Shown here piece after piece: positions 36,352-37,957 of a stretch of DNA of 64,000 nt. Positions within the stretch are counted from its first letter, which is position 1. Each line of letters opens with the position of its first letter. The translations under genes and the position numbers were made by a program. This stretch comes from Tildeniella torsiva UHER 1998/13D. Lineage in GTDB: Bacteria; Cyanobacteriota; Cyanobacteriia; Phormidesmidales; Phormidesmidaceae. The stretch is from contig JAHHIH010000004.1 of the NCBI GenBank assembly GCA_019358835.1, positions 124,001 to 188,000 on the forward strand, read 5' to 3'. The notes below the pieces were generated by a model, which saw nothing but the letters and a program-made list of their open reading frames with translations, was not told the DNA's origin and did not search any database.

Positions 36352-36663
36352 ATGCACCCTTCCTCCCCCTGTTCTTTGATGACTCGCCTGGCCTGCGCCG
36401 CTAGCCTGGGCCTGATGATGACGACTGCCCCTCTGGGCCTATCTGCAATCCACGCTAGCTTTGGGGCTACGCTGCAAGCAGCCGCTCGGGCTGAGGACGA
36501 TCGCGGCAGCGGTCGGCTCAGCCGGGTACCTGCGATCGCAGGCTGGCTCAGCTTTCGCGGCAGTGGCCGGGTTGACCCCACCCCTCCTCAGCCCTCCTAC
36601 GGCTGGGATAGCTCCGTTGCCTATCGCGGCAGCGGCAGAATCACCGAACCCCGCACCACCTAA
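36352..36663 (+). CDS. patX: PatX-like secreted peptide precursor with three RGSGR motifs
   Basis: A 103-aa small exported protein. Residues about 11-47 look like a signal peptide (TRLACAASLGLMMTTAPLGLSAIHA). The mature part contains RGSGR three times, at residues 51-55, 69-73 and 92-96 (DNA 36502-36516, 36556-36570, 36625-36639). RGSGR is the active pentapeptide of PatS and HetN, and the signal-peptide-plus-RG(S/T)GR layout next to hetR matches the PatX family. It would release a diffusible peptide that binds the HetR hood domain and blocks its activity. The three motifs here are separated by proline- and glycine-containing spacers. The adjacent hetR gene, 355 bp downstream in the same direction, makes the assignment strong. 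Confidence 0.87.
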   Translation: MHPSSPCSLMTRLACAASLGLMMTTAPLGLSAIHASFGATLQAAARAEDDRGSGRLSRVPAIAGWLSFRGSGRVDPTPPQPSYGWDSSVAYRGSGRITEPRTT

Positions 36664-36705
36664 TGCCCCCCGATGTCACCCATCCACGGGGGCGGCTAGG
36701 TGGTG
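36654..36705 (+). terminator. Hairpin overlapping the patX stop codon
   Basis: A 19-nt arm at 36654-36672 (beginning CACCACCTA) pairs almost fully with 36687-36705 (ending TAGGTGGTG), with a 14-nt loop and a few mismatches. The left arm includes the patX stop. No T-run follows, so it may stabilise or process the transcript rather than terminate it. Confidence 0.6.
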
Positions 36706-37018
36706 TGATGGCTGCGCCCTCAACCTAGATGAAATTAACCTGCAATAAGGGGTCAATTTTGCAGGTTTTGAGTCACACTTAAACGTAATCAGGTTGTAAC
36801 TTGCTTGGCCAGCGGTTTAGCCGTAGGGGCCACGTCAAAGCTTTAAATAAATCCAGCGTACGTATATTTCATTTTTATATTGCGTTTTCCGTGGTGCATC
36901 TTCTTGCAGAGCATTTAGATTAAGCTGTATCTGCTATTTCTGGCGATTTTCAGCGGTTTTGCACCCTTAGCAGCGTGGGTCGCGGTGCCGCCTGTTGTTC
37001 TGAGTTTTCTCAAGTCCG
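36664..37018. other. patX-hetR intergenic region
   Basis: A 355-bp region with two hairpins in its first third. The rest is AT-rich (36840-36895) and probably holds the hetR promoter and leader. I searched by eye for an NtcA box (GTA-N8-TAC) and found only a near-miss (GTAATCAGGTTGTAAC). No second gene is apparent. Confidence 0.5.
36737..36771 (+). terminator. Candidate patX terminator
   Basis: A perfect 9-bp stem (AACCTGCAA at 36737-36745 with TTGCAGGTT at 36759-36767) is followed by a short T-rich stretch. It lies between patX and hetR and suggests separate transcripts, though the U-tract is weak. Confidence 0.5.
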
Positions 37019-37957
37019 ATGGCTGAACCTCCTGTCTCAATGTCTCTATCTCCCCTAGCGGTGGAAGATGAGGCGCTCATTCGCCGCCTCAGCCCCAGCG
37101 CTATCGACCAGATACTGCTGTATATCGCCTTTAGCGCCATGCGCACGGGTGGTCATCGCCACGGGGCCTTTTTAGATGCAGCGGCTACCGCCGCCAAGTG
37201 CGCTATCTATATGACATATCTAGAGCAGGGCGAAAACCTGCGGATGACGGGGCATCTGCACCACATTGAGCCCAAGCGGGTTAAGGCCATTGTCGAAGAG
37301 ATGCGCCAGGCGCTGACCGAGGGTAAGTTGCTTAAGATGCTGGGTTCCCAAGAGCCCCGCTACCTAATCCAGTTTCCCTACATGTGGCTGCGGCGTTACC
37401 ACTGGCAGCCGGGGCAGTCGCGGGTCGCGGGCACCTCGCTGACCACCGATGAAAAAGCGCTGCTAGAGAGCAAGCTGCCCTCACCCTGCCCCGAGGCCCG
37501 AGTCATCAACTCGTTTCAATTTTTAGAGCTGATTGAAATTCTCCATGAGAAGTCCCAGGATGACCTGCCCGTAGAGCATCGCGTGCCTCTCAGCGAAGCG
37601 CTGGCGGAGCATATTCGGCGGCGGCTGATCTATTCGGGGACTGTGGTGCGCATTGATGCCTCCTGGGGGGCCTCATACTATGGGCTGGCTCGGTCTTCCT
37701 ACGCACCGGTCGATGACCAAGAGCGCATGTACGCCATGGTCGAAGATACCGCCCAGTATTTTCGGATGATGCGGGAGTGGGCCAACTGTATTCCTGGCAC
37801 CATGCGGGTGCTGGAAGAACTGGATATTCCCGCCGCCGATCGCGACACTGCGCTGCAAGAACTGGATGAAGTGATTCGCTCCTGGGCCGATAAGTACCAC
37901 CATCCGGGGGGGGAGCCCACTCTTTTGCAAATGGTGATTGGCCACCACCTCAAGTAG
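37019..37957 (+). CDS. hetR: Heterocyst/filament differentiation regulator HetR
   Basis: A 312-aa DNA-binding regulator, near-collinear with Anabaena HetR (299 aa) apart from an N-terminal extension of about 14 residues. Diagnostic stretches are [54 protein letters not shown] and [14 protein letters not shown]. Ser165 matches Anabaena Ser152. The hood region keeps QER (Arg236, matching Arg223) and LEELD at 265-269, the area needed for PatS-type peptide sensitivity. The protein acts as a dimer controlling differentiation in filaments. HetR alone occurs in non-heterocystous filaments too. The start could be the ATG at 37019 or the internal one at 37040; no good ribosome-binding site decides. 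It has a strong terminator downstream. Confidence 0.97.

Follow-up and report, generated by a model that had tools for sequence, protein, structure and literature searches.

A patX-type gene encoding three RGSGR motifs lies directly upstream of hetR in the window (the whole stretch of 64,000 nucleotides that was analyzed). The reading that we favor, with a probability of about 0.7, is that it encodes a secreted PatX-type polyprotein that releases several XRGSGR inhibitors of HetR, where export, cleavage, import, HetR inhibition, and dose are the steps that we infer. What the sequences themselves show is the gene with its motifs, the selection on every copy and on its preceding residue, the synteny, and the receptor pocket. 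One precursor would probably yield several signal peptides. The precursor would be exported and then cleaved ahead of the residue preceding each RGSGR and behind the last arginine of the motif, giving DRGSGR, FRGSGR, and YRGSGR. These hexapeptides would enter cells of the filament and dock in the lateral cleft of the hood domain of HetR, and the bound peptides would release HetR from DNA, in the way that PatS6 and PatX6 act on the HetR of Nostoc/Anabaena. With several copies, each precursor would yield a multiple of the inhibitor, and the position-specific residue ahead of each motif would probably set how, or by which protease, each copy is released. For Nostoc, passages of PMC12756182 report that PatX is exported, that PatP processes it, and that HRGTGR binds HetR with a Kd of 88 nM and stops DNA binding.

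The window gene and selection on its motifs

The patX-type gene occupies positions 36352 to 36663 of the plus strand in the open reading frame (ORF) listing, and the same start and layout 5′ of hetR recur in 17 close relatives, which makes 18 genomes when the window's is counted. The ORF and its translation agree with the first-pass annotation: the protein has 103 residues, with RGSGR at residues 51 to 55 (36502 to 36516, plus strand), 69 to 73 (36556 to 36570), and 92 to 96 (36625 to 36639), flanked by D and L, F and V, and Y and I, respectively. hetR follows in the same orientation (37019 to 37957, plus strand), and its start at 37019 confirms the reported gap of 355 bp past the patX stop. 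Residues 1 to about 32 (36352 to 36447, plus strand) form what by eye resembles a signal peptide, a short start with one arginine followed by a hydrophobic run rich in A and L. Across the alignment of 18 genomes, the letters of this segment drift while its character is kept (again judged by eye), and the window PatX is probably exported.

A chance motif or spurious ORF was ruled out by shuffling, genome-wide site counts, and codon selection. None of 20,000 shuffles of the window PatX protein contained two or more RG(S/T)GR motifs. A degenerate DNA pattern for RGSGR (serine AGY and first arginine CGN) occurs at 43 sites in the 5.84-Mb genome, three of them in patX, and a control pattern read backward occurs at 102. 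Three sites in one 312-bp strand would arise by chance with a P value of about 2e-10 at the rate of the 40 other sites and about 3e-9 at the control rate. A 99-residue ORF on the minus strand (36282 to 36581) overlaps patX; it was set aside because the synonymous bias of the motif codons fits coding on the plus strand. Among the sites inspected by eye on partial sequence (30 of 43 serine type and 15 of 23 threonine type), no other small exported protein with RGSGR or RGTGR fitted; of the 30 serine-type sites, only the three in patX fell in a small protein with a hydrophobic N terminus. One threonine-type site (L333, G000:C32:266887-266900) lies within a 417-codon open stretch, adjoins sequence that we take to resemble a cell wall peptidase, and is probably coincidental.

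Selection on the motifs was examined in the 18 of 26 genomes of the window's genus that have the three-copy layout and align well. All 15 motif codons vary synonymously (pS, 0.40), and no amino acid change occurs in any copy. The residues before copies 1, 2, and 3 are D, F, and Y, respectively, in 18 of 18 genomes. pN/pS was 0.008 for the motifs, 0.06 for the residues directly before and after them, 0.55 for the linkers and tail, and 0.54 for the N terminus. Six genomes of genus g3 gave a similar picture, with pN/pS at 0.039 in the motifs, 0 in the residues ahead of them, and 0.74 elsewhere in the protein. The nonzero pN of motif 3 and of the g3 motifs comes without any amino acid change and, as we read it, from averaging over substitution paths between arginine codons. 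Because the motif codons change synonymously while the amino acids stay constant, each RGSGR copy is maintained for its protein sequence.

The 312-residue HetR of the window, the master regulator and presumed peptide receptor, passes the NCBIfam model NF009718 (506.4 bits; cut-off, 489) and carries the Pfam domains PF03574 (S48) and PF18460 (hood domain). All six residues that contact PatS6 (R223, E253, E254, D256, D270, and D278 in Anabaena numbering; R236, E266, E267, D269, D283, and D291 in the window protein) are identical. By HetR, the closest named relative is Leptolyngbya sp. FACHB-60 (96%), with Phormidium tenue and Nodosilinea records close behind; the organism is a cyanobacterium related to Nodosilinea. 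A second HetR with 48% identity is encoded elsewhere in the genome (completeness, 100). A profile search of this genome for nifH alone gave no match above the cut-off (best, 221.5 bits versus 394.35), and for that reason the output of PatX is probably not heterocyst patterning. That it serves other cell fate decisions in the filament would be a guess. HetR and PatX are considered older than heterocysts (passages of PMC7761841), and parts of PMC11298460 call what they do in species without heterocysts a mystery.

Copy number and flanking residues across families

The first-pass annotation had proposed a search for homologues and left open whether three copies are common in PatX. Genes of the patX type, with an RG(S/T)GR ORF directly 5′ of hetR, were found in related genomes, in line with its assignment of the window gene, and their copies and flanks were counted. 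In the window's GTDB family, the region 5′ of the main hetR was searched in 63 genomes, 53 of which had a readable patX; in the other ten (G001, G013, G018, G019, G048, G050, G051, G056, G060, and G062), hetR was at a contig edge, fragmented, or absent, or only a paralogue was present. At least two RG(S/T)GR copies (range, 2 to 9) were found in 49 of the 53 genes, among them L020, which ends at a contig edge, so that its count is a minimum. One copy was present in four genes, two in five, three in 27, four in 12, five in three, and nine in two. All four single-copy genes belong to genus g10 (four of its five readable genomes), a point against the favored reading, and all 26 genomes of the window's genus have two to five copies. 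G011 and G012 each have a second main-type hetR, and no patX lies within 2.6 kb of it.

To represent other families of the class, 67 regions were used, 60 picked by hand and seven further loci (L140 to L146), all from among the matches listed; 180 genomes had a match, and some families are unsampled. No RG(S/T)GR ORF lay 5′ of hetR in 20 of these regions (17 of the 60 and three of the seven, the other four of which have one copy each). Of the 47 readable genes, 46 have one copy and one has five (G256, family f15). Another 60 loci (L052 to L111), which overlap the surveyed genomes, had the motif 5′ of hetR in 14 cases, 12 with a single copy; L053 (four copies) and L059 (three copies) belong to the window's family. 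Several copies are thus the rule in the window's family (49 of 53) and rare in the other families sampled (1 of 47).

On a HetR tree, G256 groups with single-copy relatives (SH-aLRT, 99), and for that reason its five-copy array is a separate gain, the only clear one. Changes between single and multiple copies number four at minimum, at least three of them forced by starred branches; this is a quick tree with SH-aLRT support only and weak deep branches, from which the number of gains within the window's family is not readable. G017, whose aligned row has only 9 residues, was left out. L112 and L113 (G020 and G015) have nine RGSGR copies each, mostly in 12-residue units, seven after D and two after Y. 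Their HetR proteins are identical in the tree columns, yet the repeat units differ, and the PatX array in these two seems to evolve fast. The array of G256 (L203) is built of units of the type VETAYRGSGR, some near-identical in DNA. One possible decayed copy, RGGGR, was seen in the single-copy g10 gene L136.

The residues before the motifs follow position. Over all 26 genomes of the window's genus, copy 1 is preceded by D in 25 and by F in L020 (the gene cut by a contig end); copy 2 by F in 21, W in three, I in one, and Y in one; and copy 3 by Y in 23 of 24. Elsewhere in the family, all eight genomes of g3, g5, and g11 read H, Y, H, Y. In g7, D or E copies come first and two Y copies close the series; g6 has N then W, g8 has H then W, g12 has H twice, and the sole two-copy g10 gene has Y, H. 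A polar residue precedes the first copy in 47 of the 49 multicopy genes, and an aromatic residue precedes the last copy in 47. When one pattern was taken per genus, 9 of 11 genera were polar first and aromatic last, an outcome reached or exceeded in 0.03% of 100,000 trials of order shuffling, where the genera are related and not independent and isoleucine is grouped with the aromatics (it occurs once, in L028, outside its genus pattern).

PatX of other families, with one motif in 46 of 47 genes, differs from this arrangement of two to nine motifs. In 42 single-copy genes, the motif is preceded by H in 34, by Y in seven, and by N in one, in contrast to the polar-then-aromatic order of the window's family. 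I, L, or V follows the motif in 156 of 172 copies from multicopy genes but in only 10 of the 42 single-copy genes, where R or the protein end is commonest (25 of 42).

It had been suggested from the window alone that the differing flanks tune dose or processing. The flanks are indeed conserved and specific to their positions. The idea is better framed as tuning of processing or dose, and tuning through affinity is unlikely. According to passages of PMC4649674, swapping the residue before RGSGR had no effect on HetR binding, and peptides extended to at least seven residues are said to bind less tightly. Since the preceding residue is frozen by position though HetR is reported not to read its side chain, it likelier reflects processing (which protease, and how fast) than receptor affinity.

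Receptors, paralogues, and competing readings

The peptide pocket was compared in 69 main HetR sequences, among which departures from the contact residues are few. E254Q occurs in two genomes of the window's genus, each with three PatX copies; E254S in all four g7 HetR proteins examined (4, 5, 9, and 9 copies); and E254A in three genomes of f15, where PatX has five copies in one and a single copy in the other two. D256N and D278N occur together in all six HetR proteins of g10 (L225 to L230); four genomes of that genus have a single-copy patX, one has a two-copy patX, and in the sixth the gene is unreadable. In Anabaena HetR, E254A raises the Kd for PatS6 from 12 to 91 nM and D256A raises it to 427 nM (parts of PMC4649674). 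A trade-off between receptor affinity and peptide dose is possible, the independent cases being few.

These data bear on a tentative alternative in which dose is the whole explanation: the copies would be redundant, tandem duplication would raise yield, and the preceding residues would differ by drift or context. The motif is identical in nearly all copies, and copy number changes readily, with near-identical tandem units in L020, L022, L023, L112, L113, and L203. The highest copy numbers occur among the lineages whose clamp is changed (g7 with E254S and the one five-copy f15 genome with E254A), and more peptide for a weaker receptor would fit the reported effect of E254A. Against this, two of the E254A genomes of f15 have a single copy, and the two E254Q genomes of the window's genus have the ordinary three. 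Further, the residue before each motif depends on position and does not change even where synonymous sites vary freely.

A doubtful extension of the polyprotein reading treats polar-X and aromatic-X RGSGR as two signal classes, released by different proteases or read by different receptors (the main HetR and the paralogues that lack the E254 clamp). PatX would then be a coded, multichannel inhibitor in a bacterium whose genome gave no nifH match above the cut-off. In its favor, the residue before each motif is fixed by position, although HetR reportedly does not read its side chain. Of the nine genera that place a polar residue first and an aromatic residue last, eight have a second HetR; neither of the two genera that do not (g10 and g12) has one. 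This association is suggestive only, coming from 11 related genera, with g7 breaking it and the second HetR of g6 being of the main type.

HetR paralogues with 40 to 50% identity are widespread in the window's family (L002/L275, at G000:C10:56422-57318, and L256 to L274). The 20 examined keep R223, E253, and D270 without exception and D278 in 19, and none has E254; the same peptide core may therefore be bound differently by these proteins. The DNA contact letters that were checked are all kept in eight of the 20, with K73R in six and K76R in six. No patX-like gene was recognized in the 20 regions beside the paralogues. RG(S/T)GR appears in some frame near three of them, in a 7-residue stretch (L258), a 281-codon open stretch (RGSGR in L263, G004:C247:39200-43100), and a 43-codon stretch on the other strand (L272); considered as a second patX, none resembled a small exported protein. 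The idea that paralogues alone set copy number is contradicted by g7, which has no paralogue (E ≤ 0.001) and four to nine copies.

An experimental relative informs the question of the target. Genome G039 is that of Leptolyngbya BL0902, as 3,000 bases of its second contig match NZ_CP046156.1 at 100%, and its PatX (L028) carries D, I, and Y before its three motifs. The section on transcriptomes and the other passages of PMC11298460 consulted here do not mention the three motifs. The same parts of that paper describe patX, hetR, and double deletions and a genome-editing system. Two groups of genes behaved in the patX-hetR double mutant as in the patX mutant rather than as in the hetR mutant. The authors' conclusion is that PatX affects transcription basically independently of HetR (PMC11298460). 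Nothing else weighs as heavily against simple HetR antagonism in this clade as these transcriptomes.

They favor an unlikely alternative, that the clade's PatX no longer acts mainly via the neighboring HetR and has another target, such as the HetR paralogues. Also on its side, R223, E253, and D270 are present in all 20 paralogues and D278 in 19, though E254 in none, and no patX-like gene was recognized beside them. Counting against it, patX keeps its place next to the main hetR, all six contact residues of the window HetR are intact, and g7 has its four to nine copies with no paralogue found.

It is very improbable that the uncut precursor serves as a multivalent ligand that bridges, for instance, the two sites of a HetR dimer with no peptide release. 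HetR is a dimer with two peptide sites (passages of PMC4649674) and the precursor has several motifs, but signal-less Nostoc PatX gave no two-hybrid interaction with HetR and did not block differentiation (parts of PMC12756182), and the lower affinity reported for longer peptides (PMC4649674) also opposes it. Neutral expansion of a GC-rich codon string, which the near-identical tandem DNA units of some genomes might suggest, is almost certainly wrong, being contradicted already by the gap in pN/pS between motifs and linkers and by repeated synonymous changes that keep the amino acids.

Related precursors and the upstream region

A polyprotein of HetR inhibitors would resemble known systems in part. 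Like PatX of Nostoc/Anabaena PCC 7120 and other filamentous cyanobacteria, the window protein is small, has a hydrophobic N terminus and RG(S/T)GR, and is encoded directly 5′ of hetR, as in many of the genomes sampled. That PatX is a small, exported RG(S/T)GR protein accompanying hetR was already known (passages of PMC7761841 and PMC12756182). With PatS and HetN it shares RGSGR as the HetR inhibitor sequence; unlike it, PatS (17 residues, with the motif at the end) and HetN (with an internal motif) are each described with one motif in the same passages (PMC12756182 and PMC7761841). In the open literature searched, which does not include the founding 2018 paper, the titles, beginnings of abstracts, and selected passages gave no description of multicopy PatX.

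The window PatX is not filed under the NCBIfam equivalog NF047413 (heterocyst_PatX), scoring 16.7 bits over residues 42 to 56 against a cut-off of 30. Of seven further PatX proteins, L062 passes this model and six fall below the cut-off, two of the six being single copy. In a 2025 survey based on profile cut-offs, 12.0% of genomes have patP and hetR without patX (PMC12756182, in the portion consulted), and profile misses of PatX may explain part of that figure.

The closest parallel in precursor design comes from the Bacillota, where the Phr propeptides Phr3T and Phr105 hold tandem pheromones in one propeptide adjoining the receptor gene (parts of PMC11343458). There, the copies are identical or slightly different, are matured by different proteases, and are bound with different affinities; up to 8 copies are mentioned, and both dose and two-speed responses are proposed (PMC11343458). 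Unlike the window gene, which neighbors a chromosomal developmental regulator, the two Phr systems studied come from phages, and their receptor family (Rap/RRNPPA) is unrelated to HetR. Cyanobactin and other RiPP precursors also carry several cores and give several product peptides from one precursor; these products are modified natural products and not unmodified signals for a neighboring regulator. In the clade described here, strong selection maintains an inhibitor precursor with several copies, which makes it a natural system for separating the effects of dose, processing, and specificity, and it would extend multipheromone propeptides of the Bacillota type to a cyanobacterial developmental inhibitor. 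The reading is directly testable because BL0902 has the patX, hetR, and double deletions and genome editing.

Upstream of patX, a conserved block spans 36266 to 36337 on the plus strand, with many columns at least 90% identical among the 18 genomes; it may be a promoter or 5′ leader. Its sub-blocks are TCCGCAGATTTACGGA (36266 to 36281), TTTTCCTGAC (36288 to 36297), and GTAACTAGGACTAGAAGCGCTAA (36315 to 36337). We know of no regulator for this block. Within it, TTTTCCTGAC and GTAACTAGGACTAGAAGCGCT are strongly conserved, and parts of the block were also seen in genera g4 and g6. A DIF1 promoter is reported for Anabaena patX (passages of PMC7761841 and PMC12756182), and one is predicted by the BL0902 authors for their patX-hetR (parts of PMC11298460). 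The exact DIF1 sequence, TCCGGA, was absent within 500 bp 5′ of patX in the window and in all 24 loci of its genus that were scanned, L028 included, which counts against the favored reading, and was present in both g4 loci. The near form TCCGCA lies at −86 or −87 of patX in most of the window's closest relatives.
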